From the NCBI GenBank assembly GCA_017506865.1, contig JAFCMP010000543.1, positions 124,001 through 188,000 of the forward strand: 64,000 nt of DNA, read 5' to 3'. Of this stretch, positions 36,261-63,105 are shown in pieces. The notes under the pieces were generated by a model. That model had not been told where the DNA came from. It made no database searches and saw only the letters and a list, made by a program, of their open reading frames with translations. The translations under genes were made by a program, and so were the position numbers. The stretch's first letter is position 1; every line of letters begins with the position of its first letter. The DNA is from Tribonema minus (lineage: Eukaryota; Sar; Xanthophyceae; Tribonematales; Tribonemataceae).

Positions 36261-39200
36261 ATGTTCGGGCTTACTGCAAGCGGGATCAGGCTCGTGCTGC
36301 TGGTGCCACTGCTAGCAGCATCGGACAACTGCAATGATCTCAGCCAGTATACACCCAATGTTGCTGTCAGGAGTGTAGTGGCAGATGTCGGCAACCTGCT
36401 GGCCATTGAGCTGGGTCCGCAGATACCTATCGAGGGAGGGTGTGGTGTGAGCGTTCCGATACGAGTGCCTGACCTGGTGGTCTCTGTCGATGGCAGCGCA
36501 CCAGCTCCTGTGCAAGCAGTCCGCAGCACCACTGTGGATGGCGAATACGGCGCCGGAGATAGCATCAGCATACAAGTCCAGTTCAGCAACACAGTCACAG
36601 TAGTCCAACCCAAGGCAGGTGCCCAGCTGCCCGCCCTAGAACTGCTCACGGGCTGTCACTCGCCTGAGTGTACTGTACCTGAAGTGCAGCAGTTCCAGTG
36701 TAGGGCTAGTGAGGGGTCTTTTTCAGTATCATTTAATGGCCATACCGTTACAAACCTCAATGCTGACTTCAAGCCTGAGACCCTGCGCGACGCGCTGCAG
36801 ATGCTGCCTGGGATCAACTCCGTGGAGGTGCTCTATCAGGCAGGCCAGCAGACGGTGTGCACAGAAACCGGCAATATAGTTACAGTCAAATTTCTGGACC
36901 TCGACTGGCCTACCCTAGACCGGTATTATGGCGATGTGCCACCACTGGAGTTCGATTATCTCAATGCGCCAGTGGACCCACAGACACTGCGGACTTGGGG
37001 TGATGGCTCTCGGCTGTGTCTCGGGTATAGGGAATGTGGATGCATGGCGGAGGACAAGGCGGGCGTGAACTCGACTGCTGGAGCGTATGCAGCTGTTGGG
37101 ATGGATGCAGTCGGTGACCCTTTGTTGTCGGGCGTATTTCTGCCGCACGCAGCGACACAGGTGAGCATAATCAATCAGTTTTTCACTGGTCATGAGCTCA
37201 ACAGTTGCTGAAAAAATGGACAAGAGTGTATGATCAGAATGTTGGCTCGGCTTACTCCATATTTTGCTAGCCGAGCCTGCCGCTCGTGACCAGCCGATCT
37301 GCTCACTTGAGAAGTGAGGCAGACCGCACCGCCTGTTTTTACTTTCAACTGAGCTCAATAAAGACAATTAACTTTCAGCTGACTTTCGATGCTTTGCATA
37401 GTTACTTCTAGACCATAAGTATGTCAGGCACATAAGTGCCGTGCATGATATACGACATTTCAAGCTTTGCAGGTCAAAAAACGCACATTCCACATGTTTT
37501 CAGGGCCTTCAAGAAGGCCAATCTCTCTTTCAGACTTGCGGATAGCATTATTGTATGCTCTGAAGTATACAACAGCCATTTTTGGCATCTGCAATTTCAT
37601 GTGCCAAATCCTATAGACATGGCCTGCAGATAAGATCTTGCTGTCATGCATGTCATGGATTCAGATCTGCATGCCAGTTTCATGTCACAGACAATTCATT
37701 GCTGTCATGTATGTTTTGGATCCAGATCTGCACGCCAGTGACGTGGCTCATGCAATCTGGCATTGAAAATAAACTCTGCCAGTGTGCATGAGCGTTGAAC
37801 AATCAAAGCATTCAAGAACCACCAGATCTGAGGACAACTCTCTGCAGTGCCGCAGCAGGAAGGTGCATGCCTGGTGCACGGGGACTGGTGCCTTGCACAA
37901 TACGACAACGCAAGCAGTGCCAGTTGCGTTTGTGCATGCACTGACTGCATGCACTGCCTGACTATCACACTTTCGCTCGCATGTGCTTACTCCTTGCGCA
38001 CATACACAGGTCGTGAAGGGCTTCCGTCAACGCAACAGCTTTGCCACTTACTTCAACGGTTCAGGAACCTCTATGCTGGACTTCAGATATGAAGTGGCTG
38101 CTGGCGACATGAGCAGCCGCTTGGAGTATGCCAGTACAGGCGCACTCCTGCCGGGAGACTGCAACATAACTGGCGCAAATCTTGCACTGCCCATCCCGGG
38201 TGCTCCAGCATCCTATTACCATGGCACGGGAAGCAGCCTGGGTGTGAACTCCCGGATCAGCATTAATACCCTTGCCCCCGTGGTTGTCATGGTGACATCC
38301 CCAGCCGAGAACCGCAGCTATGGAACAGGCGAGGTCATCGCCATTCAGGTTGTCTTTGACCAACCGGTGGTGGCGGACCTGTCACGAGGGTCGCCAACGC
38401 TGCTGCTGGAGACTGGCGTCTTTGACCACGTTGCTGTACTGGTCAATGTGACGGGCTCAACGCTGACTTTCAAGTACACCGTTGCATTAGGGGACTCCAA
38501 TGCAGACTTGGGCTATCACTCGTCCACCGCGTTGTCCAGCAATGGCGCGCTGGTCTACCGCAAAACGGCCCATCCTACGACTCTGGTCAACCTTGAGCTG
38601 CCACCACCAGGCGCAGCTGGCAGCCTGGCTGCCAGCAAAGACATCACCGTGCGGCCGACCACTGTCAACGCTCTTGACGTTAACACCGACACTGTCGACG
38701 GAACATATGGTGCAGGGCAGCACATTATCATCAATGTGATGTTCGGGTGGTGGCAGGATGAAGAGGTGCCAGTAAGGCTTCTGGGCGGAGATGGCACAGG
38801 GCTGGGCCTGATGATGAGAACTGGCATTGCGGCTGTTGCGACTGTCTACGCTGCCAGCTATGTGTCAGTTGGAGGGGTAAGTCCAGATGTCACACTGGGT
38901 GCCGATTGCGCTTGGCTGGTGTCGTACCCATATGCAAGGTCTGCGCTTGACACAGACAGTAGCTGTGCTACCGGGCATGTAGTTCACACCTTTTTTCTGC
39001 AATGTGGTGCCGATATGGGAATACGATCGGAACGGTCAGCAAAGCACTCATCACTGTGTCGGAATAACCTGGCACTTATATTTTCTATGTACATGCAGCC
39101 AAATGCATATTTACAGCTGTCACTCGTCGTTATCCTTGCAGGTCTGGCGTTGGCAGGTGGTGCTGGAGGAAGGACATCACATGAATGCCACTCATGTGGG

Positions 39201-42200
39201 GCGCACATTCACAGCTGAAGGAGTCAGTCTCACCTTGACTTCTGTGGTGGGTAATGCTGTGAGCTTCAACAACCAATGGATCGGGACTCCAGTGGATATG
39301 GGAGTGCCAATTATTCAGGTAACTTCAGCAGCTGCAAAATGTGTGTTATCTTGCATCTCTACTCGAGAAGCATTTACCAACAAACAAGCAGACATGCACT
39401 TGTGAATTAAAGAAGTGCCAGTGGCAGGTGATCGCACTTGCCTTGCCACCTCAGTCAAAATCTGGCAGGGTAGCACCTTTGTCGTTCAAAGGCGCTCTCG
39501 TCATTGCGCCCTTTTTGAATGTCACCTTCGTCCAGAAAGGGTTGTCTGCTGTGTACCTACAATGCCATCGTGCTGCCTGAATTGCAGTTGGTTGTGGTGC
39601 TGAGATAAATGCAAGATCCAGCAGGACAATATGCAGACAACTCGCACATGAGCTCCATGACCGCCATGTGCTGAGGCTGCATGGCGCGCCCGACTGTAGT
39701 GGTGCGCCATATAACCTCATCAGCCATTGCAAACAGCAAGATACAGGCACATGATGGCATGTGTGCCATGCATACCATGCCTTGGACAAAACCGCGCAGC
39801 CTTTCTATAGAGCCGCTGACTTGACACCCTCTGTTCGCGTTGTTGCGAGTCACTGTAAACCGTAAGTTTGAGGGCGCACCTGCCAATATTCATACAGTGC
39901 ATACGACTTGTACTTGATGAAAATATGGTCTACTCACAATATATCGTCACTCATGGTGATGTTTGCCTTTCCTCCGCAGCTGAAATCAGATGGAACGCAG
40001 ACAGCAAATTATGTGGGAGGCAATGGCACCACAATGCTCTCGTTTCAGTATGTCGTTGAGGAGCTGGATTCTACTCTGGACTTGGACTACAGCAGCACGG
40101 CGTCCCTTGTGCTGCCTGTTAACACCACACTGCACCGTGTTGCAGATGAGGTAGCAGCGGTGAGCTTAAGAAGCACGTTAGACATCTTGATCATTGCGCA
40201 TATCCAACATGCTGGAAGGGCGTGCATTTGAATTGATTACCAATCAGCACGCCATCACAAGGTGCCATGCACTATTCTTAGCTTATTGTATTGCCATACC
40301 TCTACATTACTGGAATACTGAAGAGCGTTTCTGCCGTATTGCGGTCTGTAATATGGACGCTAAGATGTAGTACATGGACAGTTATGCTGAGTGCGCGTGC
40401 GCAGGCAGGGGACATCAATGTCAATGCCCCTGAACTGGCGTGCTGGCATTTAGGGCCGTACAGCTTGTATATCTACAAATGTGCTGTAACGAAACAGGTT
40501 GCACTTCAGCGCGAAGGCCACAGACCATTGAACTGTCACATAGTATTTGCAGAACAAGCCAGAGAGCTCAAAGTTCAAATTAGCTTAAAATACACGCATA
40601 CTGTGTACCTCAGACATTTGTGACCTTAGGTTACACATCATGTGTGTATTTCTTCAGGAGTGGTATATGTGTGTACCTAACATGCAATGTGCGGGCAACT
40701 GTGGATGCCTAGCTGTGCGTGATCACATACCAGTGGAATGTAATTGACTGCTGAAGTGTGGTAGAGATGGATCATGCCAAACACCACAGCCACAGAATCA
40801 CCTCACCGCCAGGATCTACTGACACATGCATTATCCTGCTTATTGCCTTGCCGCACCGCAGGCGATAGACGTTGTTCTGCCACCGCCAGGACAGTGTGTG
40901 GTGTACAAAGGCTGCTCACTAGCGGGCCAGCGCGCCATTGTCATTGACACCACGCCGCCATCTGTGGTGTCTGTCAGCTCTCTCAAGGCCGGCCAGCTCT
41001 ATCCGTACAGCGTAAATGATGTCATTGATATCACAGTGCACTACAACAAGGAAGTGGTTGTGGCTATCCCCAAGGCTTTTGCAGTGGCGCCGCGTCTGCA
41101 TATGAGCACTGGTGGATATGCGCTGTACTACAAGGGCAACGGCACCACGGCGCTCACGTTCCTGTATCAGGTCACCACACCAGATGTGAGCCTTGCCTTG
41201 GAGACATATCAGCACCCCTTAAAATCACCGATGGAGACTTGGAATGCTGGTGTGAATGGGTACATTCGCCGTGCTGCGACTGTGCCAACAACCGATGCAG
41301 ATGACTCGTTCCCGGTGGCAGGAACGACAGGCAGCCTGAGCTCACCTGCGGCTGCACATGTGTTCATTGATACCACTGCGCCACATGTGACAGCAGTGCA
41401 GTTCGTCTCGCCGGTGAGTGAAGCATCCTAGCGTCTGACACATTTGATTCTCTGAGCACGCTGTCTTACATATTTGTGCTCGTGCCCATTGAATCAACGG
41501 CGGCACAAGGATTTCCCTTCCAGAAATATCACTCGTGGATGTGGTGTCAATGATAAGACAAACAACACAATAGGTGATCAGTGAAGTGAGCTTCACCATT
41601 GGTGGGCCCTGTATTTATGATCGGTGATTGGCAAGGTCATACTGTCGACAGCACTCCTGAAGCCACAGCTATTTTGCTGCAAGCAGCAGATACTTGGGCA
41701 TGACTTTAGCAAGCAGGATGGTGTGTGGGCATCGCCCTCACTCTGCGCACATTGCAGTCATGTCGTCTGTGTGCATATACAATCGAAAACACTTTCACAC
41801 AACGCAGCAAACCCTGATGTTCATTGGAAGTCGCAAGTATGTAGCGCCTTGATGATCCAGACAAAAGTTGGGTGTTTGTAGGGATTGTATGCAATGGCCT
41901 TTCATAACAACATTTTTTGACGCACTTCAGAGGTATGGTGAAGTACTTCTCTACTGTGGTAGGTTTTGCCAAGTTATAGGCCTCACATGTGTGTGTGCAC
42001 TTGCCACGATTTGGTGCATTACAGTACATGCAAGACAACGCTCCAACTTTTCATGTTGACCTCGGTAGTAGAGCGTGACTATGGTGAACGGTTGTGAAGA
42101 GGATTTTAGGCAGACAGTCACAAAGCCAATGCAATCACTCTAAACTACTTCAGTCTCACATCAAAGCATCTTGCTTTTTTGATAGAAAGGAGTCTACACC

Positions 42201-45200
42201 TATATTCGCGTGGTCACGCTGCTGGTCATTGTTTGTATATGCCATGACCGGTACTTGTGCGAGGCCCATGAACGCAATTTGCGGGCACCACTGTATGGCA
42301 GTTTTATTCTGAGTCCTTGACTTGATGACAAAATCTGACCCCATATCACTGACTTTTGTGCGCAGGTTGCTGGGCAGTACAGCATAGGTCAGAGCATTGT
42401 GCTGCAAGTGACGTTCAGCGCACCAGTCACTGTTTCTGGGTCCCCCGCAATACGACTCACCTCTGGCGGCAGCGCAACGTACACTGCCAGCCCAACCACA
42501 TCCCAGCTCACATTTCAGCTCGTCGTTGGCATGGCATCTGCTGCTGGCGAGCTTGACATCTACTATGACAGCACCTGGGATCCGCCACTGGCCGCCATTC
42601 GCCCCAATGGGGGCTCCATTTCTCATGCAGTCACAGCAGCCGCAGCAGCTTTGACCCTGCCACCCGGCCTCACGCTGAGCTCTTACGGAATTGTGATCAA
42701 TACCACGCCTCCCAAAATCATCGCCGCTGCGTGTGAGCACGTCAGTGGCAGAGTGGGTGTGGGCGAGATCATATCCCTGACTGTCACTTTTGACCAGCCC
42801 GTGGTGGTGGTCGGGCATCCAACGCTGCCGCTGGACGTTGGTGATACAACAGTTGCGGCAACGTATAATGGCCCGATTGGCGGTGCTGGTCAACTTGAGC
42901 TCGAATTCTCGTACGCGGTCACCAGTGCCACAATCCCTGGCCAGAGCACCAGCGATCTCGACGCAGCAGATCCCGCGGCCTTGGTGCTGTCTGCTGGCGA
43001 TACCATCTACCGCAGCTCTACAACCCCATCACTTGCTGCTGTGTTGGACCTCCCACCTCGAGGCCAACCGGGCTCACTGGGCATGAACTGCGCAGTGTGG
43101 GTGGACACAACGCAGGCTGCGGTCGCATCTGTCTCAACTCGTATGCTCGCTGGCACGTATGGCATCGCTGCTACCCTGCAGACCATTGAGATAGCGGCTG
43201 ATCCGGGTAGTGTTGCCTCGGGCCAATTTGCACTGGGGTACGGAGAGCTGGGGCCATCGCACTGCATAAGCGTGACGACCTTGGATGCAACCACTTTACG
43301 AGATGCCATACGGGCCATCAACACATTGATGGACGTTACTGTCACGTCCACTGTCAGGGTGATGGAGAACACCAAGCGCTATCAGGTCAGCACATGTGGT
43401 CGCGATGCCATGTGCACAACTGCTCAAAACTCATGATTCTTGTAGACATGGGTAACTTGTAGACGCTCGATCTGAGCGTTGAGAGCATGAAATGGACCGC
43501 GGTTTCCTAGGCTAAAGCGTACAGGGTATGCAAGCTTCTTGGTGGGGTCTTAAACTCTCTGTAGTTCAGTTGTACTGATGAGGCATTGCAGTACCTCAAA
43601 GTATAGCTTACAACAATCATCGTCATTCAGTTGGCCACATACACTTGCTGCTAGGCTTGATGGCATCAGTGCTTTGTGATTTTGAAATGCTACATTCAAA
43701 ACTGTCTTCGGATGTATAGATGTGCATACTCTGCCCAGACCGTGAACGCTGGCTCACCTCTTATGTTCTCATTTGTCGTCGCAGGTCTCATTCGCTGCCC
43801 CAACCTCGGGGGTGTTTGAACTCTGGTGGGATGTCAGCGCTGCCTGCAGCCCATTCCTGTGCAATGGCGTGCCATGCACAAACGGCGGAGTCATTGTCAA
43901 TCGCAACATACCGCCACCTCTGCAGCAGGGCCTGGTGGAGGTCGTGGTGGCCATGACAGAGGACGTGGTAGTGGCGGGCGTGCCAACGCTGACACTGCAG
44001 CTCAACACCGCGACTGCGCTGGCAACGTGGCAGCCGGGCTCGATACAGTATGTGGACGTTGGCGTCTCCGCTGCCAACCCTGTGACGTCAGGGTACTTCA
44101 GAGTGCAGTATGCGGGATTCGAGACTGGCTGCATTGATATACGCGCAGCCGACACCGACGCGGGCAGCGAGAGCCTCAGGAGCCGCCTGCTCAGCGTACC
44201 TGCTGCTGCATTGGTGGGCGTGGTGTCCGTTGCTAGTGCACCCGTTGGTAATGGCGTGCGCTTTGCCATCACCTTTGCCTCAGCCCTGGCAGGGAAAGTA
44301 ACCGCTGGAGCATCTGTGTGCCCTTCGTCACTGCCGGCAGGCGCAACAGTGGAAGTGCCTAACACCAATGAGTTGTATTTCGTGTACCAGCTCAGCCCTG
44401 GTGACAAAGCACTGGCAATTGTGGCGTCACAGCTGACGTTACCTGGTGGCGCCACCATCAAACGCGCATCCAGCACACCCACCCAGGACGCCATCATAAC
44501 TCTACCCAGTTCGTTGGAGGCTCGCACGATTCTCGACAGGGCTATTGACTGCTCTGTAGCGCCGCAAGTGACACACATCATGTGCACGGCCTTTGGCGGC
44601 AAATATGGCACAGGGCAGCGCCTGTACCTGGCGGTCACCTTCAATATCCCAGTCGTGGTCTCAGGAAATCCCGTCCTGCACCTGAACTCTGGCACAGCCT
44701 TGGACCCAGCAAAAGCTGAGTTCTACGCGACTGACGGCGCAAACATTGTGACGTTCCGCTACACAGTACTGCAAGGACAATCGACCCCAATCCTCGCGCC
44801 CTACTCCGCTGTTGCTCTCAGCACGCAAGGTGGTGCCATCACCAGCGCAGCGGGGAGGCAGTTTGTGGCAGCCGATCTCACGCTGCCGGCTGGTGCGCTG
44901 TTAGGGGCCGATGGCACGGCCATTGAGATTGACACAGCAGCAGTGCTGGTCCCATTATCGCTGATTGTTGACAAGGCTGCGGGCACCTACAGCACTGGCG
45001 AGGAGGTGATGCTCACAACAACGTTTCCATGGCCAGTTGCAGTGATGGGCACGCCTTACATACAACTGAGCACTAGGGGGCGGGCCAACTATACTCAAGG
45101 GGGGCATGTACAGGTGAGTACATCACAAATGTTCCTGTAGAACAATCAGATAGAGTATTGATAAATGGGCCATGCTACAAGTACTCCAAGATATGCTGTG

Positions 45201-48200
45201 AGCTCTGGACCAGTCCACTAAGGTGTGTGCACAACACTGCTGCAAGGTGCGCTAGCCTTGTCTTTGCTATATATGCAAAGATGCTGCAGGCGTTTGCCGC
45301 ACGCACAGCTAGGCTGACAACTGCTGCTGTTCTTTTCTCCCTTGATGCTGGCAGGTCATCGACATAGTGGCTGCAGATGACCTGGAGGTCTTCACAGCGC
45401 CTGTTGCCGTGACTGCTGGAAGTTTCCGTGTTGCGTATGATGGTCACGTGTCTGAGTGTGTGCCATTCAATGATCCCAGCATACTGCAAGCAGCTCTCGA
45501 AGCGCTACCAGCACTGCAGACGCCCACACCTGTGGGACACCCATATGTCGACACTGTCTCTGTGGCTTCATACCATGGCGGCAGCAGGTGGGTCAATAAG
45601 TCATGTTTGAATGCTTTGCATGTACACTTGGTTACAACAGCTGATCATGCTGTGTGGTGTTGCTTATGCAGGTTCACCATCACATTTGCTGGTGGTACGG
45701 GCAAGTTTCAGCGCTACGCCTCTGCTGTACAGGTGAGTCTGAGTGCATACTGGTCATGCGCAAGTAGCTTTGCAACCGCGCAAACTGTTCATGCGATCTA
45801 TAATTATGCAGTTCGTTCACCTCCTGTGTACCAATCTTGACTCTCATTTAGAGACGATCTCAACTCTCTGTACGATCCTGTTGCCGTGGTGTTGTCGCCA
45901 GATCCCTTGGAACTGGTACGAAGGCTGTGCGGCCATGTTCCCAATGTACGCCAAGCCAGCTCGGGCCGACAGCTCAACTGCCGCTTTCTTGTACACAGTA
46001 AGCAGTGGTGAAGTCGCAAATCCGCTGGGGCTTGGTGCTGCTGCAGCCATCGTCCCATGCTGCGATACAAACAGCTATGTGCGACGCAGCCAGAGCAAAC
46101 CCACGATGGATGCATTTCTGTCTCTGGTCCTGCCGCCCCCGCTGGTGAACGTGGATACGACAGCACCTGCAGTGGTGTCGGTAGCGGAGTATGACTACGG
46201 CAATGGCGCATATGGCTATGGCGATGTCGTCATCTTGCAGGTTACATTTGATCTGCCAGTTGTTGTGGATGACGCGTCACCGCCGCAGCTGGCTCTGGTG
46301 ATAGGGCGCGTCGTTGCTGGCATGCCCTCAATCTCCACTGTGGTGCCCGCTACTTATGCGGCGGCATCATCGCTCGCGGTGCCCAGCAGCTTGCCCCCTG
46401 ACGACACGAGCATCTTCCTGATGTATACAGTTGCGGCTGACGACTTCAGCGCCAGCCTGACGTACCAAGACACCGCGTCTTTGTCTGGCACCATCTGGCG
46501 AGCATCCTCGCATCCCATTACGCCAGCAGACCTGACACTCCCTGCGCCTGGCACTCTGACTGGCATCACAGTCAATGCTGCGTCACAGCCAACGGTGGTG
46601 TACAGCGTGTCGGCAGTACCAAGTAGCGGCTCGTTCAATATTGGCGGCACAGTGAACATTGTGGTACGATTCACGAGGCCGGTGAAGCTCAGTGGCAGTG
46701 GCTCCCTCATGCTCGACTTGGATGTGGGCTCTTCATATCTGATCTATGCCACGGCCAGTTCCGCAGATGCATTCGCCAGCACCATCAGCCTCCAGTATGA
46801 TGTCAAGCCCGGGCATAAGAGCAGTGACCTAGACTACAGGTCTACAGCATCACTGACTACGCCAACCGGCACAGTCGTCGTTGACGCAAGCGGAACAGCT
46901 GTGGACCTGACATTGCCGCCACCAGGCAGCCCTCAGTCACTTGCTGGCACCAGTGACATTGTTGTGGCGGGAACGTCCATGATATGGAGCGTTGATAGCC
47001 TCACCCCGGACGGCACATACTACACCGGCGAGAGCATATTCATCAGGTGTGTACCTTGTGGTAACAAGTTGCTGTGTGCTGAAAAGCACTTGAGAATGTT
47101 TGCTCTGTTGTGCAAGTGGCTGTGAACCAGCTTGTGAATATCAGCATAGCACGAATGCTGGTTTATGCAGTATGTGCTGCTTCACCACCATCTGTACCCC
47201 TGATGACTGGCGCGTACTGATCATCAGTTCTCCGCTGCACATGCATCTCCTTATACAGTAGCTGCGACAAGATCTCACATGTGCACACTTGTGTTGCTTG
47301 CAACGATGGACAGGGTGCGCTATTCAAGCCCGGTGGTGGTGGTTGGCGTGCCTCTCCTGATGATGAAAATCGGCACCGATCCCAACTACCACACGCGCGC
47401 AACCTACGTGTCTGGTTCAGAGACTTCCGATCTGATCTTTGAGTACATTGTGCAGCCTGGCGAGAACACCATTCGGCTGGGTTATGACGGTACAAATGCC
47501 ATATACTACCCAACTACAGTGGAAGCACATGCTGCAATCAAGACAGCAGAGGATCTTGACACTGACGCTGACACAAGCATGCCAGAGACTTGGTCGCTCA
47601 GCCAGCTCAACGACGAGGCCTACATCCAGGTAAGCAAGTCAGCATACCGACTTCTAAAAGTGAGGGACAACAATCGCAATAGTGCATCAATGTGTTGCTG
47701 ACGGTCACTGACTTGCTTACAGATTGAATGTGCGAGGTGCAAAATTGGCCTGCACTCAAGTCCACCGTGGTGTTCATCTGTTGGGTTTTCTTGACCGTCC
47801 AACATGCAGTGCAAGGAGGCACACATGCATAGTCTATACTCGAAGCATATGATTGGACAGATTTTTCAAAGAGAAGCAGGTGACACGTGAAGTCGCCTTC
47901 ACATGTTCTGGGTGGGTGTGTGGTGCCCACATGAGCAAATCACATGTCCTCATGGCGCATGTACATGCTTGCTCAATGGTCAAGCCGCCAAACGGAGGTA
48001 TGTGCACACAGAACAGCTCAGTGACGCAAGACACACCGATTACGAACATGGCGGAGTTGTCAGCAATATGTGAGCACCAGAGCTGTAGTCAGTGCACTGC
48101 CGAGTCTGCGAGTGCTGAGCGGTTCCGCCACACACTATGAATGACGCACACGTACACTGCCTGACCATCCGCACAATTACTGCACTTTGCTGACAACAGG

Positions 48201-51200
48201 TGGACACGGGAATTCCAGTGGTAGTTGACGTCTCCACCGATACGCCGCACGGAGTGTATGGCGTGGGTGAGCATATAGTACTTAATGTCCAGTTCAGCAA
48301 ACGCGTGTATGTCAAGCGCAGCATCAGCCTGCCTTACATGGAGCTTCCGGCCGGGAGCATAGCGCCATACGTTGGGGGCAACAATACCTATACAATGGGC
48401 TTTGAATATGTGGTGCAGCCCGGCGACAGCGTGGCATTGTTTGACTACCGTGATACCCGCACATGGAAGCGCCAGAACTTCAGCTACGCTCTGCAAAAAC
48501 CACCAGTGGCTGAGATCAAGGTGAATGCTCAAGAGGGGAGCAAATGATTATGTGTCGGATGGATGAGCACAAGTGATTGGCAGTGCAGCTGCCGCATATT
48601 GTCGCTGTTGGTGGTCATGGTGCTTCATGTGCTGTGTCTGTGATCTTGCGGTTCAGGCATTCGCCCTTTATCGTTACCTTATACTTCTATGGGTTGCTGC
48701 AAGCCGTTTGCAATTTACGTGGTTCATCTTGCAGCGCTGTGTATGCCACCTGTTTATAGAGGCATGCCACATAGCTCGTAAGTTATTTGCCGATCTGACC
48801 AACATGCAATGCATGCCGTCATTTGACATTGAGCCTACACTTATGTTGTCTGCACATGTGTTCCTGCAGGCGGCATCAGCCAGGCCAACCACGGACGCAG
48901 AGCTCGTGCTGCCATGTCCTGGCCAGCACGGCAGCATCAGCAACAAGACCACCATCACCATAGACACCACGCAGCCGACTGTGCACAGGGTCACCGTCAC
49001 CAGCCCCGATGGCGTCTACTTCACTGACGATGTCATTGAACTGCTAGTGGAGTTTACGCAACCTGTAGTCTTCACAGGGACCAGTGTGTCGCCGTCTCTG
49101 TTGCTAAGGTCGCAGACCAGGGCTGCGGTAGGTGGCGTGCGTGGTGAGCGTCGCGCAAGCTACGTGAGCGGCAATGGCACTGCTCAGCTGCACCTGCAGT
49201 ACGTTGTGCAGCGAGGCGACTATACCCCCTTGCTGGTGAGAGCTTCATGGAGTCTTGTTGGTTTGTGACTGTGTTGACTTGCATGAAATTGTCATTGTGT
49301 TTGCTGATGCAACTGTACATACTGGTTTTGCCACAAAAATCAACGTCATCATCAGCAAGCACTGTTGCGCAGCTAAGCAAACAGGAGCCACCATACACTA
49401 CCCGACATGTGAAAGCATCCTGCTGTAGTGCACTGAGCTGTGCAGTAGCAGCTTTCATAGTCTATGTAGCAACTGCGTTTGCCCGCACGCTGATGAGACT
49501 TGCCAATTGATTGAGCAGCGCAACATGCCATTGGTCTGACGTCTGTGCATGGACACTATTGCACTAGAAACGTCATCATGCTTTCCCTTCCGGTGTTGCT
49601 GCACTCAACAGGACTACCAAGACACTGGCTCCTTAAGCATGTACCCAAGTCAGATAGCCTCGCTGCAGTACCGCGATGGCCGTGCCCGCCGCACTGCCAC
49701 AGACCCTCAGCAAGATGCCAGCTTGGTGCTGCCACAGCCGGGTGCCGCGCTGACTGCAGCAGGGCCTTTCAGCATTGTGGGATCCGGTGACAAAGTGGCC
49801 ATACAGACAAGGAATGTGACAGCCATCAGTGTCAGCAGCCCGCAACCAGACGGCATCTACTGCGCGCAAAGCATCATACTCGTGGATGTCACCTTCACCA
49901 CCCCTGTCCGGGTAACCAACGTCACGTCACAAGGCAAGTCATCCTGTGCCTGCTCGTTTCTGGCTTGTACAGTGCCATTGAATTCTGGTGCTTTTGACTC
50001 ACTGGCTGCCGCTGAGCATGAGCACTGGTTTTCGAGGCTGACATGTGAACATCTTGTGTTTCCCTCCTTGTTATCCTTGCTGCCTCTGCAGTGCTGATGC
50101 TGCAACTGGTGGCACGTGTCGTGGCGGCAGCATACATTAGCGGCAGCGGCACCGACGTGCTTACCTACAGCTACAAGGTCCAAGCCACTGATCACAGCCC
50201 GCACCTGGACGTCATTGCCCCCACACCCACCCACTCTGCATTGCAAGCTTGTTTTGCCTGCATAGTGGAGGCATCGACAGGCGAACCTGTCTACCTCAAC
50301 TCCATCCCAGGCCCTGGCGTGCCTGGCAGCCTTGGTGCCAGCAAGGACATCATTGTAGATGGTGATGCATTGTTGGTGACACAGGTGACCTCCACAACGC
50401 CAGACGGGACCTATGGGGCCGGGGAAAGGATTGAAGTGGCAGTGCACTTGCTACAGCCAATGGTGGTGGTGCCTGCGCTCACTGCAACGCTGAAACTGAA
50501 CGTCAAGGACTCTGCAGGACACAATGTCATCGTGCCACAGCACAGGTGCGCTGTTATTTGCTTGCTCAGCTAAGTGCTTTGACTGGCGCGCATTTTTGTT
50601 CCTTGCTTTTAAGTTAAAACAGAAGACAGGGTTGACCACTCAATGCACTCGCCTTGACATCCAGCACGACTGATCTGGCAAGGACAAGCAAGTTGTGTTG
50701 GTATCTGTCCTGTGATTTGGTGCTCATGAAATTGTGCTGTGTAGTCAATACTGCAGCTCACACACTATTCGCCGTTCTGTACCCGCCTCACAGCTTGAGC
50801 ACAGACAGAATGGAATTGCTCTTTGTCTACACCATCAATGATGGTGACAACCAACCAGCCAGCTTGGTACTTGACTATGCCGACACTGCATCCCTAGGCG
50901 GACAGGTATGCCACTCTCCTATGCGCTGACATGCTTGCACCATCCTCAGTGAACCTTGCAAGCTCATGACAGAGATCATGGCGGCTGGGTTATACATCAG
51001 CAATGTCGTCTTGCGTAACAGGATGACTAGGCTGCATACAAACAATGTTTTGGTGCATGCCCCACACATATTCGTGCCGCATTGCGTGGCCCCACCTACA
51101 TGCGATATTCACCTCACTTGGAGCATTCCTCTGTTGGTGTTTCCTCGTGTGCAATGCAGCTGCGATTCAACAGTACGCTTAACAGTACGCTTCCAACAGC

Positions 51201-54200
51201 AACCATGTCGGTGACACTTCCACCGCCAGGCTCACTGGAAAGCCTGAGTGGCAGCAGCAGCATCATCATCGACACCACGCCTCCCTTTGTGGTATCCGTC
51301 ACTTCACCCATGCCAGACGGCATGTACACCCTGGGTGCGGTCATTGATATTGTGGTCACCTTCTCCGCGCCGGTCACATTTCCTGTGGCGGCTGATGCCA
51401 GCGCGTCGCAGCTCATGATGGACGTCAGCGGTGCAGCGGGCGTGGCTGCTGTGTACAGGGCAGGCAGTGGCAGCTACAGTCTGTTCTTCAGGTACACTGT
51501 GCTTGCGGGGCACGGCACGTCTGATCTTGACGTTGTCAACACCGCCGCGCTGCATGCAGCGGGCTTGATGCGCAGCAGCAGCGCTCCGCAGACCCCCGCT
51601 GTGGTGCTTCTTCCACTCAAAGGCGCAGCTGGCAGCCTTGGGGCGAACAGCGACATCGTGATCAACACGTTGGCTGTGCAAGCCTTGAGTGCTGGCACGC
51701 TGCATGCAGACGGGACTTATGGCGTTGGCGAGATGATCTGGGTGCATGTGGCCTTCTCTGGACCTGTCACTGTACTGGCCTCAGAGGTAAGGCACCAAGT
51801 GCGTGGCAACTTGCAACACACTGTCTGTCATTGTGAGTCATCCAACATGACCATATCCGAACGTCGCTGACGTGTGTACCTGCTGTGTCTGATGTTACAG
51901 GCAGCACCTTACCTGCTGCTAAACTCAGCAGCCGCGGCAAAAGCGGTGTACGCAAGCGGTAGCGGCACCAATACCCTCCGCTTTGTATACACGGTCAGCG
52001 AGGGCGACAGCAGCTTGCAGCTGGATTACCTATCGTCCTATGCGCTACACAGTGGCGCCGCGCTGTACCAGATGGCTGCACCATCCAGTGTGCCGCTTAT
52101 CGTCTACCTGCCACCACCTGGCAGCCATGGCAGCCTTAGTGACACCAGTGCCATAGTGATAGATACATCGCAGCCGACGGTTGAGCGGGTCACCAGCACC
52201 ATTCCAAATGGCATCTACGGTGCCGGAGAGCACATACCCATCCTCACAACATTCTCTGCGCCAGTGAGGCTGGGCGCCGGCAATGTGAAACTCTTTGTGA
52301 GCGTGGGCGAAGCCAATGGGCCAGCACCTTGCACGTATTCATCAGGTAGCGGGACTGACACACTGACATGGATGTACGTTGTGAGAGAGGGCGACTCCTC
52401 CACCGATCTGGCAACAGACTCTGCAGCAGGGCCACCCTTCAGTAATGGCAGCATACTACGATCATCCACACATTCCTCACAGGTAATGAATGAAAATAGC
52501 TGTACAAAGAGGATCTGGCTTGTCAGAGCGCTAGTGAACGTGGAGGAACCGGCTGCAGGCAAAGCATTGGCGGTCAGCGGATACTGTACGGCTAAAGCGT
52601 TTTCAGTAGAGCGTCTATTCGCTGATCGATAGCAAAATCTGTTGATACCTGGCTAGGAGCCAAACCTGATTTGCGATCTGGATGGCCAATTATTTAGCCA
52701 AAGTCCACGGCGTTTACTGCTATACAAATGTTGCTTCATCCTTCTTGGCAGTGTAAATGTTCAATATCCTGCACCCCGCACTTTTACTTCACAGGAGGCT
52801 CTGCTGAGTGTGCCAACAGAAGGCCTGCCAGCAAGCCTGAGCGGCAGCAAGGACATTCGCATAGACACGCGCCAGCCGCATGTGTGGGGTGTTGCCACTC
52901 GGCGTGGAGTGTCACTGGCAGCTGGTCAGATTGCGGACCTGCATGTGCTGTTTGACACGCCGGTGGTGGTCAATGGCACGCCGAGGGTAGCGGTTGGCAT
53001 GGATGATGGCACCATCAGGTAAGAGTGAGGGTCGCTCTGCAAGGAGGCAGTTCGCTTGACAGCCCAGATAACGGCGATGGCTTGCCTTCTAATGTATGTT
53101 GCAGTGTGTTCAGACAGAACAGTTGGAGCTGGTACCAAGCTTCTGCTGTATATGGGGTGCAAAACGACACCCAACAACACTGTCCTGTTCTGGCTCACAT
53201 GAAGAGCGTAGGGTTCTTGTTTTTTGGTTGCTTCATGCTCTGCTTCTCATACATGCATACTGCTGCACAGGTATGCCCTCTACAACCCCAACTTCACCAC
53301 CTTGCTTGGGCCTGGGGAGACCAGTGACCACAACACCACCGCTGTGCCCTTCACGTTCGTGGTTAAGCCTGAGGACAAGGTGAGAGGACATGACATATGA
53401 CCTCTGTTAGCACAAGGAGTACAAATTTGGCAAGGTGCTTTGTTTTGCCTTGCGTTTGGCATCTGTCATGCACCTGCTATTTGAATACTCATTGCCGTGT
53501 GTACCTCAAAACCAACAAAGTCCCGGGGACCATAAACACTGCAAATATGCTTTGAAGTATGACATCTACATCAACAAGTGATCTGCGCAGTCTTGATGGC
53601 TGCTGGCAGTCCTCTTGCTCACCAGTGATAGCACACATTCAGCATCAGTGGCACTGAACTGCATGATCTTGCAGAGTACATTCCATTGCTTTCATGTGCC
53701 GCACCTCAATAATCACGATCACTGCATTGCTACTGTTCGCCATTGCCATTCACTACAGGCCTTGCGGCTGCATCACTATGCCCCGGCATCCCTGGAGCTG
53801 AATGGGGGCACCATCAAACGGCAGGGAGCGAGCCCTGTGACGGATGCCCTGGTGGTGCTCCCTTCACCCACGCAGGCCCTGGCAGAGGGCGGCAGTGGCA
53901 TTCTCAATGCGGTGTATGGCGTCGAGGTATGCAGGGGTGAACACGTACCTGTCTCTGCTGCACCCTGACGTAAGCGTATGATGACGTTTTGTGAGGCACA
54001 CTGACAGTTTTGTGGTTGCAACAAGACCACAGGCGATCAACACATCCAGTCATGTACCTCCACCACCGTTCGCCGACATTGTGAGACGCTTGGCTGTCAC
54101 AAGGGAGTGACTTGATGCAGCATCATTTGAGCTTGGCGAGTCATGTCGTTTGTTGCATGCAGGTTATGTAAATACTCCATCATAGGGAGTCGCAAAGAGA

Positions 54201-57200
54201 GTCGTGCACTCATCAACTGCCACATGCATGCAGCCGCCTCACAACACCTGCACCAGCTGTTGCATCCATTCACCTCTACACGCAATGCTTGTGCTGGTGC
54301 TTTGACCAGGTGACTTTGCATGGCCTCTACCACTCAAGTGTTTTGGACCTTGAGGCAGTGCTCCGTCATGGAGACGATGCAGCCACACTCATCAACGGGA
54401 CAAGTCGGTACCTAGAGATGGGAATACCGCCGATGAGAGAACTACTTCCAGGTACACTTTCCATTGCGTTTGTGTCTGGGTGCTGCTTTCTCTCTTGAGT
54501 ACAAGATGGATTATGTTGGGTGGGTGCACAGTGATGTTACAGTTGCCCTGCTAGCTGTTAGTCAGAATACCATCAGGATGCAATGGACTGACCTTTGCTC
54601 ACATGTGCAGAGTTGCAGGCAAAGTGTAGGCATTTTTTTTTAGGTATGTCATGTCACCTGTTGGGAACGAGGTCCAATGATGGGTAGCAGATGGTGTGTG
54701 GTCATGTGCTCAACGTGTGACATGATATACTAGATACACCTAGCATTGCTCGAAAGGCTCTTGCAGCGGTGCTGCAAGCTTGGTTGCGCATGCGCAGCAA
54801 GTCCAGACATTTCCGGACACTTCATTGTGTGCACCTCTGCAGGTGATGGCTCTGTTGAAGTGCCCGGCGCACTGGAGCAACCGCTGCTGAGCCATGGCGC
54901 AAGCGGCAGGAACTACCCCTTTGCAGGCACTTGCGGTCCCAATCTGGCCATGAAGTCAGGCGCCAATGCACTGCAGAGCAGCACTCAGTATGCAGCAGCT
55001 GCCAGCAAAGCTATCGACGGGAACCGCGACGGCGTGTTCAGCAGCGGTGCCATCATCTTGACACAAGAGGAAGAGTCGCCATGGTGGCAGGTTAGTCTAG
55101 ATGACCCACACCACACCTGGTCACTGCACCTTGTAATTTCATGGTCCAAATCTGTTTTTGTATGGGTTTCAGAGCTGTCTGCTTCGAGATTTGCCCAAGT
55201 TGTTTTGATGCATAATGCCGCATTTTTTGCAAAATCATACTTCTATACGTCAGTATAGCAGTTGATGGACTCTGAAGTATCTGTTCGAAGTGACAGGTAT
55301 GCTACTAGTTTAGCCGCACTGTACAAACACGCACAGCTAATTACGTATGAACTGACTGTTTTGCTTGTCGTTCATGCTGCCAGCTTGCATTGGAACAATG
55401 AGCGCTCACCTGCCCACTGTTCTTGCTGGCTTACGAATTGTAGATGTTGGCGGTCACATTACTGACCGTGCTGCATGACACTCATTGTTGGCATCTGCTG
55501 CAGCAAACGAGTTACTTTGCTTAAGCCGTGTGCCAATGGCCGATACATTGTCTCATTGGTTGCAGGTGCAGTTGGAGGCCCCCAGCACTGTTGGTCACAT
55601 TCGCATCTTTGGGAGCACCCCAGAACTGGGCCAGGCAGAACTGCAGGTACTTTTGGAAAAGCCATCATATTCACAGCCTTGATTGAAAGCCGGTAAAACC
55701 CCAAGCTGTGCGTGTACATAGGGGTCGTGTAACCAATAGGCACAGCACTACATATCTCAATGCTTCATGGGCAGTGCTGCTTGACCCATACGGCAACTGG
55801 TTGCATATGAGCGTTGATGACAGTAAAGTGCAGGTGGCCCATTGCGGACATGCATTTGTCGTCAACAGGTGCACAGTGTCTACATGCTGCTCTGCCATAT
55901 TACTTGTGCTCATATCACCCGGATTGCCACCACCCCAGATCGGTCTGTCCCATCCTTGCACTGACAACGTGACAGAAAGTGAGGCAGGCGCTCAAATGGC
56001 CAATGAACCTTGTTACGCTCGTTTCATCAACAGCTCAATGCAGGGCTCTATGATGCGGCCTCATCTCATTTCGCAAGTGGTGGTGACAACAGGCTGTGCC
56101 ATCATGTGGGCACTGTGTCACTCAAGCTTCAAATGTCGACAGTGACTGTAGATTTATGATCTACACAACATTTTGCTGCAAGCCCTGAGTATCTGTTTTA
56201 CTGGATCCTTTGCTAAATTGCACAAGTAGATCTGCGCAGGTGGTTTGCAGGCTCCTGTTGTTGCGAACTGACATGAACTCTTTGTCAAAGTATCCAGCTC
56301 TGATGTTATCACCTGAACGTGCTCAGCGCATGCACAACGCTTGCACACATCACATGTCCTTAATCACATGTCCTTACCTTTGCTGTGAACAGGCCATCTA
56401 CATTGAGTCATCTCAAGCCCTCTACGGCAGCTTCTACTTGACAGTCCATGACCGGTGGAAGGGCAGCGCTACCACATTGAGCATCAACATTGAGGCACCC
56501 TGCACCACTGCAGAAGAGACAGCATCCACGCTTGGGAAGTCGGTACGTGTCTGAGGTTTGAGTCGGGATCAGGGCAATAAAACCTGCCTAGGTTCATGTA
56601 GGAAGTACCACTCGGTAGATTACTGCATCCCAGAGCGGTGGTCATAATTCATATGTTTCAGAAGAGTTGTCATGAATTGCGCGTGGAGGTGGATGTTTGA
56701 CGTGCATGCGCAATCTTGCCACCACTGTGAGTGTCCCCCATCTAAAGCACATGCCTCATAACCCAGAATGGTACGCGTACACATGAATGGCACGGTGGTA
56801 CATGCGACATATAAGCAGTCAAACTCAACTCATTCAAAACGTGCGAGCATGGATGCTATTGGATGTCACCCACCTGTAGTCGCAGCAGCGCTGTCCAGCA
56901 TACAGCGTGACCCTTGAGAGAGCGACACAGCTGCCCCCAAGTCTACACAACGCCACAATCATATGTATGTTTCTTGACTGCATTTCAGGTGGCGTCGCGC
57001 CTGAGAAGCGCTGCGGCAACACTAGGTGCTGGCATAACGGTGTCCGTGGAGTCATGTGCACCCGCTGCAACCGCGGCCGCTCAGCGAGCATTCATCGTAT
57101 CACTGCAGTCCGACTTTGGTGACATCCTACCAATGACCGTCAATGCTGCGGGAGTGGCATTCATGACACAGGTACATGAGCCACTGCCACACTGATAATA

Positions 57201-60200
57201 CTGGTGAACGTTCATGAAACGGACAATACCTCAACGCATCTGTTTTGTGGCGTGATAGCTAGGGCTAAGAGCAGCTGAGTTGGCGCGTCTGCAGCAGACT
57301 CTTGTCACAGCATCAACAAAAGCCTAATCAAATACAGTAGTTCAATTTGCGTGACATTATGTTTTGCTGAGGTCAACATGAAAAGCTATCATGGGTGCGC
57401 CAGTGTTGTCTGGATTGCTCATGATGATGCAGAGTGCCTGTCCTGGATGAATGTCATCGCTTATGTATCAACGCATTGCAAGTAGATACGCTGCGGAAAG
57501 AGAGCAGAGCAGCATCGAAGGCCGTGCTTGCAAGGCACACCAAAAAATGTGCAAAGTCAGTGCTCATGCTAGATTTCATAGTGTTCTCATGCGCCTCTCA
57601 CGCACTTCACACATGCCTCAAGATAACAGTGGCAGCCTTTACGTTAATCACTGCCCTCCAAGTACTCACCGCCAATACTGTGCACCGGCCACTGCCTGCG
57701 CGCATCAGGCAACCGTCACGACGCTGCGCGAGGGCACAGCACCCGGCACGGTCTACCACGACGGCGCTGTAAGGCACGTGGACCCCAGCCACATGCCCCT
57801 ATGGGTCATGCTCTTTGCAAGCGCCGCCGATGTGTCCGTGGACATGACCCTCGAAGAAGCGAGGGCGGCGGCAGTATGGGTGCGGTACCTGGAGGACAAT
57901 GGGCATGGGCGTGAGGCAAATGTGGCACTCCCTGAGGGCGTCGTTGGCGAGGTGGTGCGGCTGCAGCTGGGGGGGATCGGGCAGGTGAGCAGACCGCACT
58001 ACGTCATTTATCGTAGCAGGTGCTTGCAGGAAGCACCTAGGCTACTGTGCAGATGCAGCCTGCTGTGACACTTTGAGAGTGTCACGTTTAAACAGCATGG
58101 GACTTCTTATAAATACAACTGTCGTGGGCTAACAATTGCGTGCGTCCCACGATAGCATTCCATTACTCCCCCTGGGTTTTAACGAAATGCAGCTTGACAT
58201 GGCGGTAGCATGTCAATGCTTGCTGGTGCTTGCTGGAGTAATGATGCACCACCATGGGTATCACACAGCAGTCAGCCACTTTTGTGACTCTGCATCAAAG
58301 CAGGTAGGCAAACAACCGCTTTCCTACCACCAGGCAGCGTAGCACAGCATGGCCACTTTAGTAGCTATAATGGACACCACCGCATGTACTCATGTTGCCG
58401 AGCTTGTATGAAACATGCTGGTTGCGCAGCTAGCCTCACCCCCTTCCACTGTGTGCCTCTGTGTGTGCTCCTGAATGTGTCAGCTGGCACTGGCAGAAGT
58501 GGAAATATACGAGCAGGCCTTCCCGTCACTCCTGCAGTATGGCGGATCTACCCCTGTGCCCGAAAAGTATGCGTGGGAGCCATTCATGGCAGTCGACAGC
58601 CCATCAGTAGTGTTTGACGGTGCCCCACCGGACGGCACTTGGATGCTGGAGGTTGTGGACAAGAAGGCAGCTACGCTCGACAGGGGCGTCACACGCCACC
58701 AGCACAAGTTCAACAATGGCGACGGCGGATTCGCGGGCTGGTCGCTCACGCTGGTGGACTACTTCGGCAACTCGCGCAGTTTTGCCAACGATGCGTACAT
58801 TACGATTGAGACGCTGCCCACCTATGGCACGCTGTACACATCCAGCGATGCAGCTCCAGGGAGTGATTTGCGGCCGGCAGGCGGGTTTGAGCCGCTGGTG
58901 GGCATTTGTCGTGGCAGCGGCGATGCAGCTGACGCCAGCAAGCCCGTCAGGTTGGTGCTGCCACGCATTTTGTGCGATGAAAATGATTGGTGTCAGGAGT
59001 GTTCGTAATGGCCCTTGGTGTGATGTGGTAGCCAACAATGAGCGCTGTCAGAGCCCCTCTCAGTCACCTCGCCATGATTGGCAGCAGGTCAAAGTGGCCA
59101 TCAAGATTGACTTCGTTGCCCGTTACAGCTCGTGTCGTGATGGCACTTGGCAACAATGCGTTCACAAGCGTTGTGTGGTCAAGCTGATGTGGCGCTTGTA
59201 CTGTCTACCCAGCCGACTCTGTTAATGCGCCCCCCCTCAAAGTATTGGCCTACTTTAATTCATCGCCTCTATGTCATTGCTGACAGTAAAACTGACCAAT
59301 ATTGTGATCATCACTTGTGTGCGCTTGCCTCTGCCATGCAGCTGCGCGTCCACATTTGGAGTGGCGCCAAATCTCTCCACGCGTACGCTCGGCGCAGTAG
59401 CTCAGCGCAACAGACTGCGTCGCACTGCGGATCCCACCAGCAGCCTCAGGGTCTGGTACCAACCCCCCCCTGGTTACCTGGGGCCTGACTCCTTTACCTA
59501 CAGCTCCACTGTGGATGGCAAGAAGTCACCAGCAGCTGCACCAGTGAACGTGAAAGTGCGCCAGTGCCGTCTGCATGAGACAGGGCAGCGCCAGCCACTG
59601 TGTGCGTGCACTGCGCCCGCAGATGCGCAGTCTATGTTGGAGTGCTTTCAGGTGAGCACACGTCCAGCCTGGTGCAGCGCCAATTACCTTGTATTGTATA
59701 CAGGCTGTGTTCATTGCAAGGATCTCCCCCTCACTGTTGTGGTGATTTGAAGTAGCACTGCAACAAAAACCTGCATATGAGTTGTGCAACACAACTGGCG
59801 ACATTAACATAGAGGTAGTGTAGGCACGACTTCGGCCCATCCAGCATTTATGCAGAATGTGAAACTCTGTCGTCCTTCGAAAGCAGTCGTTCGTTATGAT
59901 CACTGCTCTGCTGCAGTGTTGGCGGCAAACAAAATCGCAGCGTGACAAGAGCTTCTATCAGTTGGGAGGGGGGGGGCGGACCATCATGATGCCTGTGCGT
60001 CACATGTGCACACATTGAACTCGTCTTTGACGCCGGCCCTGCCTGAGGATGATCATCGTTGGAGGCGAAACTGATGATGCCCTGCGTGCTATGCCTGCGA
60101 CACTGCGCAGGCTGTTGCGGGCACCTGTGAGGGGGCCATGGCTACGCTACCGTCACAGGTCAGCGCGCGCGCGTGTCAGTCCTGCTCATCGCCCCTTGCT

Positions 60201-60491
60201 ACCTTCAGCCCTGCCAGCTACCGCGATTTCAACGCCGAGTGTCTGCTCGAACTGGCGAAAGTGACCGCCTACATGCGACAACAAGGGTACTGTGCGGACA
60301 CGTATGAGCTCCCCCTCTGCAGGGGTGAGGCCGCGGATAAGCTAGTCGGTGCCAGCATTGGTCTGGAGGTAGATACATCGTATCAATTGAAGAGCATGGG
60401 CGGGTGGCAATCCGACAAGGCGCGGGAACCACCGAGCGCCCAGTGCCAGTGCCTGTACAGGCCGTGGGACTGTGCATGTGCAACTGAATGA
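36261..60491 (+). CDS. Giant secreted modular adhesin-like protein, about 31 exons and 4160 aa
   Basis: Exons: 36261-37160, 38010-38876, 39142-39318, 39980-40159, 40862-41413, 42366-43385, 43785-45113, 45355-45587, 45672-45732, 45812-47046, 47314-47629, 48200-48520, 48870-49235, 49612-49933, 50092-50545, 50800-50905, 51160-51786, 51901-52482, 52795-53018, 53271-53379, 53759-53926, 54310-54451, 54843-55090, 55566-55646, 55939-56076, 56393-56542, 56989-57171, 57709-57984, 58484-58950, 59342-59651, 60159-60491. Phases agree throughout; exons 10, 25 and 28 are the least certain. The N-terminus MFGLTASGIRLVLLVPLLAA is a signal peptide. About 20 Ig-like repeats follow, then F5/8C-type, P-domain-like and cadherin-like modules and a Cys-rich tail. 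No transmembrane segment is seen, so the product is probably secreted or wall-bound. A role in adhesion or matrix is inferred from the domains. Confidence 0.8.
36480..53018 (+). other. Array of about 20 SWM/Ig-like repeats
   Basis: Each unit of about 100-120 residues follows one pattern: V..V.S...DGTYGAGE.I.I.V.F..PV.V.G.P.L.L, then Y.SGSGT..L.F.YTV..GD.S..LDY, then a Leu-Pro-Pro-Pro-Gly...GSL turn and IDTT.P. Clear cores include VDGTYGAGQHIIINVMF (38.70 kb), PHGVYGVGEHIVLNVQFS (48.25 kb), PDGTYGAGERIEVAVHL (50.40 kb) and PNGIYGAGEHIPILTTFS (52.21 kb). The pattern resembles repeats of bacterial giant adhesins (the SWM-repeat type). Related arrays occur in algae and other protists. One exon usually ends near the middle or the end of a unit, mostly in phase 0, which would allow duplication by exon shuffling. 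Confidence 0.75.
49934..50091 (+). other. GC-AG intron in the giant gene
   Basis: The donor is CAAG|GCAAGT and the acceptor CTCTGCAG|TGCTG. The join gives SQVLMLQLVARVVAAAYISG in phase 1, continuing the repeat pattern. All other introns of the gene fit GT-AG. Confidence 0.8.
54843..58520 (+). other. F5/8 type C (discoidin-like) domains
   Basis: Exon 23 encodes ALQSSTQYAAAASKAIDGN and ESPWWQ, and exon 24 continues VQLEAPSTVGHIRIFGS. This is the fucolectin/F5-8C pattern A.QSST...A.KAIDGN...PWW.VDL....I..I.IY. The split after PWWQ is phase 0. A second, more diverged domain seems to end at the exon 28/29 junction, with VRLQLGGIGQ joined to LALAEVEIYEQAF, the typical last strand (V.VQL.G...L.LAEVEV). 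These domains bind carbohydrate or other surface ligands, so a binding role at the C-terminal end is likely. Confidence 0.75.
58484..59651 (+). other. P-domain-like and cadherin-like modules near the C-terminus
   Basis: VVFDGAPPDGTWMLEVVDK followed by GGFAGWSLTLVDYFG resembles the beta-sandwich P domain found after subtilisin-type proteases and in bacterial secreted proteins. No protease domain is present. The next exon has VWYQPPPGYLGPDSFTYSST and then PAAAPVNVKV, the F.Y.P..GY.G.DSFTY...D pattern of cadherin-like modules. Both calls rest on short motifs. Confidence 0.55.
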
Positions 60492-61837: not shown

Positions 61838-63105
61838 GCCCATCACGGTTGTGGACATGAAGCCAGCAGCAGCGCCACCCGCGGCGTCCCCACCGCCCAT
61901 GCCGATGGTGCAGCAGCAGGGCCTGTCGCCCGCCGTGCTATATCAGCAGCAGCAACAGCAGATGATGACACCGGCGCGCATTGTGGCCCCTGTGGCGCCA
62001 GCACATGTGCCCATACCAATGGCGCCACCTGCGGAGCCGGAGCCGCGGGATGCCCATGTGGCTGGGCCGCAGTATGGGAAGACACTGGATGCGCTGTTGC
62101 GTATGGTCAACCCACACTATGGGTTCGATACAGGTACGAGTCATTTATAAGCTGCCGACATTGTGCGGAAACTAGTGTTCTATTCTGGATATAGTTCACC
62201 CTACACCGTCCTGTCATTGGTTCAGGCAAGCTCTGGATACTACAAAGCTCCGCATAGCATAGACCGTGCGCCATCATATCACATGCGCGTTTGAGTGACT
62301 CTGTAAGGATGCCATCTGTTGATACAGTATATCTGAACCCGCATTTGATTGAAGCATCCCATGTGGTCATGCAACGGACGCAACACCGCAGTTCGAAAGC
62401 TTGGCGCTGTAACATGTACTTGAAGTCCGTGCACCCCATTCCAAGCGCCAGCCGGCGATCTCCCTCTCTAGCATGTTTGCAACCACATTCTCATGAGTGT
62501 GGTCAAACATGCGTAGCCACCTGTTGCTGGAGCTGGTTCACTGCAGCAGCCACGTCAACACCCTTCACCACAGCTACACGGCCTTCTAACTGTCCCCATA
62601 GCCGGCAATCGCTAGCGTGCATTTCGTCAGCCACTGCTGCTGCTCTCACACCCGAAGCACCCACCGCACCGCGCCCCCCACCTCACAAACAGGGGTACAG
62701 GAGCTGATGCTGGAGGTGGCGGACGAGTTTGCCACGCGCGTCGTGGACGGCGCGGCTCAGCTGGCAAAGCACCGCGGCGCAGGCGTCCTGGACGCGACTG
62801 ACATCCAGCTGTTCCTGCGCAAGGCCTACGGCATGCACTGGCTGGGCATAGGGGCGCTGCCGCAGATGGCGTCGCGCGCGCTGCCGGCGCGCGTGCGGCC
62901 AAAGCACACCGCCACCACGGCGCACGTGCTCGGCAAGGCGGCGCGCTCGGAGGCGGCGGCGGCGGGGGCGGCGGCGGCAGGGGAGCCCAGGCCTGCGAAG
63001 GCGAAGCGAAAGGCCAATGGCGCGCCGGGCGAGAAGCTCACAAAGAAGCCCAGGAGCGACACGAAGAAGGGCATGAAGGCAATGGGGGGTGGCGGGGGGT
63101 CATAG
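61269..63105 (+). CDS. TAF12: Transcription initiation factor TFIID subunit 12 (TAF12)
   Basis: Two exons, 61269-62133 and 62693-63105, give 425 aa. The splice (GATACAG|GTACGAG to AAACAG|GGGTAC) is phase 1 and joins NPHYGFDT to GVQELMLEVADEF. Residues about 269-345 form the TAF12 histone fold. KTLDALLRMVNP is the first helix, VQELMLEVADEFATRVVDGA the long second helix, and AQLAKHRGAGVLDATDIQLF the loop and start of the third helix. LRKAYGMHWLGIGALPQ matches the conserved LERNWNMWIPGF end. TAF12 pairs with TAF4 in TFIID and with ADA1 in SAGA. The N-terminal 268 residues are Pro/Ala/Gln-rich and contain a 24-Gln run, and a basic Lys/Ala tail follows the fold. It is larger than human TAF12 (161 aa), nearly all by these low-complexity extensions. 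Copy number elsewhere in the genome is unknown. Confidence 0.92.
61767..61838 (+). repeat. CAG/CAA tract coding for 24 glutamines
   Basis: Mostly CAG with interspersed CAA codons, inside TAF12 exon 1 between LL and PITVV. Further short Gln runs occur on both sides, for example ELQQHQHQQ and YQQQQQQ. Length polymorphism between strains is likely. Confidence 0.95.

Follow-up and report, generated by a model that had tools for sequence, protein, structure and literature searches.

The giant gene and its exon chain

The window analysed here is a stretch of 64,000 nucleotides from the xanthophyte Tribonema minus (assembly GCA_017506865.1, contig JAFCMP010000543.1, positions 124,001 to 188,000 of the forward strand), and coordinates without a contig name refer to it. 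It contains a real, large, mosaic gene, referred to below as the giant gene, which combines an array of immunoglobulin-like (Ig-like) repeats with a diverse C-terminal region. The gene was modelled using an exon-chaining gene finder trained on the open frames of the region itself, in the stricter of two settings. The resulting predicted model, produced by the gene finder with donors checked by hand, spans positions 36261-60491 on the plus strand and has 30 exons, 29 introns and a product of 4083 residues. Its coding exons, all on the plus strand, are as follows.

Exons 1-8: 36261-37160, 38010-38876, 39157-39318, 39980-40159, 40862-41413, 42366-43385, 43785-45113, 45355-45587
Exons 9-16: 45672-45732, 45902-47046, 47314-47629, 48200-48520, 48870-49235, 49612-49945 (weak donor), 50092-50545, 50794-50905
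Exons 17-24: 51160-51786, 51901-52482, 52795-53018, 53271-53379, 53759-53926, 54310-54403, 54843-55090, 55566-55646
Exons 25-30: 56393-56542, 56989-57171, 57709-57984, 58484-58950, 59342-59651, 60111-60491

The first-pass annotation, made from the letters and open frames of the window, had proposed a single coding chain over this interval. The chain was recovered, with 29 introns in place of the 30 claimed and 4083 residues in place of about 4160. Intron phase is 0 in 22 of the 29 introns; all are GT-AG by construction, as the gene finder permits no other type. The finder's last two exons were replaced by the open exon 60111-60491, and exon 29 was extended after a donor check by hand. Exons predicted beyond 60491 were discarded because this open exon ends in a cysteine-rich tail. 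In its first setting the finder had split the region into 97-132 small exons, and this setting was discarded. Additional small exons from the looser setting (for example 41690-41720, 42190-42224 and 56034-56105) were left out.

Thirteen of the introns interrupt a repeat unit while keeping its frame, so that exons 3-6, 10-11 and 12-21 each hold together as a run. The other 16 junctions, including every one after 53926, depend on the gene finder alone. This counts against a single protein, and the donor of exon 14 (49612-49945) is weak. The least reliable part of the model is 54310 to 58484, where no repeat guides it, and small exons may have been missed, mainly in that part. The same 16 junctions, all of them outside the repeat units, leave room for a model that has merged two or more genes, such as one for the repeats and another for a lectin-like C-terminal part. 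However, the stricter setting, in which starts and stops were allowed, still chose one gene from 36261, and a Big_9-like stretch near the C-terminus crosses an intron. A merger is unlikely in our view, and the chain is treated below as one gene.

The repeat array and its bacterial relatives

36489..53893, plus strand: array of about 20 Ig-like units, interrupted by short modules named LP (residues 77-3343, from profile matches)

The array was compared with bacterial sequences in both directions. A profile was built from bacteria only, using 69 units, one each from the loci with a full-length unit (70 of the 77 fetched) after exclusion of locus L026 as a near copy. It matched the giant protein in 25 stretches, 20 of them above 15 bits and 5 weak, with a best score of 92.8 bits; the maximum among 200 shuffled copies of the protein was 7.3 bits. 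Conversely, a profile of 16 giant-gene units matched all 77 bacterial loci, although these loci had been found using a hand-edited consensus. Three native giant-gene units, used as queries against plasmid records, found 11 of 72,556 records at 26-39% identity (best E 1e-26), with at least 80% query coverage in nine of the 11. A native pair of bacterial repeats (from locus L050) was used to search the whole 158-Mb genome (554 contigs). It gave 22 matches at E <= 0.1, 16 in the giant gene and 6 on one other contig, C423. Both the bacteria-only profile and the latter search rest on bacteria that were found with the edited query, but the plasmid-record search does not. We regard it as shown, at the level of sequence similarity, that the giant-gene units are homologous to a bacterial Ig-like repeat of giant adhesins. 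At the sensitivity of the L050 search, the units appear to occupy two places in the genome. The first-pass annotation had described a secreted mosaic of about 20 bacterial-type repeat units with a lectin-like end, and this description is supported by the 20 stretches above 15 bits and by unedited sequences that match in both directions.

Where annotated, the bacterial records from the plasmid search name their proteins Ig-like, DUF4347 or autotransporter-associated repeat. None of 50,697 phage records matched. Two contigs of the IMG/VR viral collection, found with the edited consensus, carry the same repeat in one and four stretches (L121, 4464-6038, and L122, 4137-5696, respectively).

Among bacterial proteins, an "Ig-like domain-containing" giant from Azospirillum sp. 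B510 (WP_052293836.1, 4142 residues, plasmid pAB510f) belongs to the same repeat family by native tblastn and is similar in length. Unlike the giant gene, it is encoded by an uninterrupted gene adjoined by TolC and HlyD-family genes, and the giant-gene profile matches only four stretches in it, compared with about 20 units in the alga. More generally, bacterial type I secreted giant adhesins are encoded by uninterrupted genes, whereas the giant gene has 30 predicted exons and lies in a eukaryotic genome. The giant protein thus resembles bacterial giant adhesins in anatomy, but its gene is spliced. The likeness to these adhesins in the repeats that had been claimed at first holds, and so does the division by introns, except for their number.

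Assignment of the repeat to known families

The units had been labelled SWM in the first-pass annotation. SWM_repeat was rejected as their Pfam assignment because its model (PF13753) matched none of 16 units with the E limit set at 1, and nothing in the giant gene with the limit at 10. In the genome PF13753 had a single match, on contig C552, which scored 21.2 bits against a cut-off of 27 bits. Big_5 touched three of the 16 units (best E 0.01), and NCBIfam gave no match over a 1618-residue stretch of the protein. In two bacterial members that were scanned, the repeats mostly had no Pfam or NCBIfam name either; outside those repeats, one of the two has fn3, TIG and a Big-like match that falls below its cut-off.

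Structural comparison gave no Foldseek match at E <= 0.001, and the unit profile had a single match among solved structures, at E 0.96. The S-layer protein SbsC (4uic, 4uj6, 2ra1) is counted among the closest known systems, and its structure 2ra1 was among the top rows for a giant-gene unit. In PMC8078820, 2ra1_A is listed as the template for SWM_repeat (20.72% identity). Since 2ra1 turns up for both, a distant kinship between the units and SWM_repeat is possible, even though the Pfam model does not match them.

The termini and the C-terminal domains

36261..36323, plus strand: probable signal peptide of about 21 residues (hydropathy 1.87 over residues 1-19; cleavage place set by eye)
54843..55646, plus strand: first F5/8C stretch (galactose-binding type), first part, exons 23-24 (PF22633)
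57709..58520, plus strand: stretch whose end resembles an F5/8C domain (visual judgement only)
58532..58790, plus strand: P-domain-like stretch (PF01483, 15.5 bits, below the cut-off of 21)
58790..59555, plus strand: cadherin-like or Big_9-like unit, spanning an intron (PF17963, 17.9 bits, below the cut-off of 23.6)
59556..60491, plus strand: cysteine-rich C-terminal tail, comprising the end of exon 29 and the last exon

Judged by hydropathy only, the N-terminus has a hydrophobic stretch resembling the signal peptide proposed earlier, and the 4083-residue model has no hydrophobic segment at its C-terminus, in agreement with the proposed lack of a membrane anchor. Residues 1362-1381, located in the third LP module, are as hydrophobic as the N-terminus and are probably not a membrane segment.

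The C-terminal part matched Pfam less well than the first-pass annotation had suggested. Of its two F5/8C domains, the first reached 28.9 bits against the PF22633 cut-off of 27.8 when the piece was given alone, but 27.6 bits within a longer piece of 665 residues, and 24.3 bits with PF00754, below the cut-off of 28.2. One putative F5/8C domain is thus supported at the edge of the cut-off. The second was rejected as it had no Pfam match at E up to 10. The P-domain-like and cadherin-like units likewise fell short of their cut-offs and are retained here as descriptions only. The cysteine-rich tail was confirmed by eye, with 14 cysteines counted between the end of exon 29 and the stop codon. It has no Pfam match, no second copy in the genome was found at E up to 1, and the last exon had no match in the viral contigs.

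A second mosaic gene and the history of the array

A second mosaic gene, absent from the first-pass annotation, was found on contig C423 (122128-155387, loci L102-L105). It contains the same Ig-like units together with FG-GAP_2 and Calx-beta domains. On the minus strand, another model overlaps the gene at 122-133 kb, in its 5′ part, and that part of the plus-strand model is therefore doubtful. The two genes share the units, with eight C423 stretches above 15 bits, and possibly the LP module; they differ in the FG-GAP_2 and Calx-beta domains of the C423 gene, for which the model is provisional.

The LP module, a second short module that had not been noticed before, was picked by eye at four places in the giant protein.

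36702..36962, plus strand: LP module 1, tentative (residues 148-234)
43206..43838, plus strand: LP module 2, tentative, spanning an intron (residues 1168-1245)
44076..44327, plus strand: LP module 3, tentative (residues 1325-1408)
45406..45732, plus strand: LP module 4, tentative, spanning an intron (residues 1688-1768)

High scores from a first LP profile were set aside as circular, because that profile contained these copies. When the profile was built from the C423 copies only, its top four matches in the giant protein were the four places picked by eye, at 13.3, 8.0, 1.5 and 0.6 bits, while the best of 200 shuffled copies reached 9.5 bits. The reverse test gave 4.3 bits at best. None of the loci L025-L101 matched the first LP profile. 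The presence of the LP module in the giant protein is thus a tentative assignment.

Of the eight unit stretches of the C423 gene that score above 15 bits, six fall entirely within one exon of 2953 bases. The 13 intra-unit introns of the giant gene occur at 12 different columns of the repeat model, with one pair sharing both column and phase. Both observations would be in keeping with introns gained once the units had multiplied.

Mean identity among the giant-gene units was 30.4% (120 pairs), and between giant-gene and C423 units it was 30.3% (112 pairs). Giant-gene and bacterial units had a mean identity of 35.4% (1104 pairs). The value among bacterial units, 59.4% (2346 pairs), is biased by how these units were found. 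Since the giant-gene units are mutually distant, their divergence suggests that the repeat array is old. In a tree of 92 units (123 columns), branches were long and 44 of the 89 inner branches remained open. Neither the giant-gene nor the C423 units separated from each other, and a donor could not be named. It is conceivable, though rather doubtful, that the alga acquired a bacterial giant-adhesin array long ago, and that this gave rise to a two-gene family with one copy largely in a single exon and the other cut by introns at scattered positions, the array being fused to lectin-like and cysteine-rich ends to form a long extracellular fibre of adhesive or defensive use.

Neighbouring genes and other genomic observations

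Directly downstream of the giant gene, a two-exon model on the plus strand (61857-63105) has the TFIID 20-kDa (TAF12-like) histone fold (PF03847, 53.9 bits). Upstream, a predicted minus-strand model within about 7-34925 of the window includes a helicase (AAA_12, 138 bits; AAA_11, 87 bits) and probably merges more than one gene.

The genome has 92 exon-level matches to the light-harvesting (LHC) family and thus belongs to a photosynthetic eukaryote. Among solved structures, one LHC exon had its best relatives in an LHCI polyprotein set (9vfj), followed by ACPI and CAC antennae. RuBisCO was represented by two short matches with stops and was not recognisable in reading frames. Phycoerythrin alpha had no match, but the controls gave none either. 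Eight histone H4 matches were located inside open frames of 441-536 residues (C9:39387, C9:47634, C112:1387884, C181:16513, C223:465082, C223:472417, C223:679519 and C445:1035670), and these may be fusions or frames that are long by chance. Exact copies of the 24-base string GGTAAGTGCATCATGGGCCTGACG stand at no fewer than nine places, for example C25:389363, C33:212294 and C47:405067. Since the exact copies are on different contigs, it is probably part of an interspersed repeat.

Function and significance

We consider it probable that the product of the giant gene is a single secreted protein with a length of about 4080 residues, which shares its plan with bacterial giant adhesins and works outside the cell as a fibre of the surface or wall, in an adhesive or structural role. 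What is predicted from the sequence is the exon chain and the unit fold; secretion, place, binding and mechanical role are what we infer. The signal peptide, judging by hydropathy, would route the protein through the endoplasmic reticulum. The approximately 20 Ig-like units, with their predicted beta-sandwich fold, would form a long string or rod that acts as a spacer. The C-terminal part, with its F5/8C-like, P-domain-like and cadherin-like stretches and cysteine-rich tail, may bind surface or matrix polysaccharide or cross-link the chain. Such an arrangement would correspond to the extender array and binding end of bacterial giant adhesins.

An extender with a lectin-like end would suit a recognition role as well as a structural one. 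The protein could act at the surface in mating, prey capture or grazer defence, with the end domains binding a partner and the repeats giving reach. A possible parallel is the giant protein SwmB of Synechococcus, reported in PMC9387257 in connection with swimming motility and with resistance to predation by protists. However, nothing at the locus suggests mating, prey or grazers. A recognition role is possible but clearly less probable than a structural or adhesive fibre.

No description of such an algal protein was found in the titles and abstract openings among the PMC matches listed. The finding is of moderate interest for two reasons: a bacterial-type adhesin repeat occurs in a spliced gene of an alga whose genome contains one related gene, and those literature matches offered no description of such a protein. 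If the fibre reading is correct, the giant protein would be a candidate long surface fibre of the alga. The reading would also mean that a bacterial-type adhesin repeat to which these scans assigned no Pfam or NCBIfam model resides inside a spliced nuclear gene. With scattered introns in one gene and most units of its sister gene in a single exon, the pair could be used to ask whether introns entered after the repeat had multiplied.
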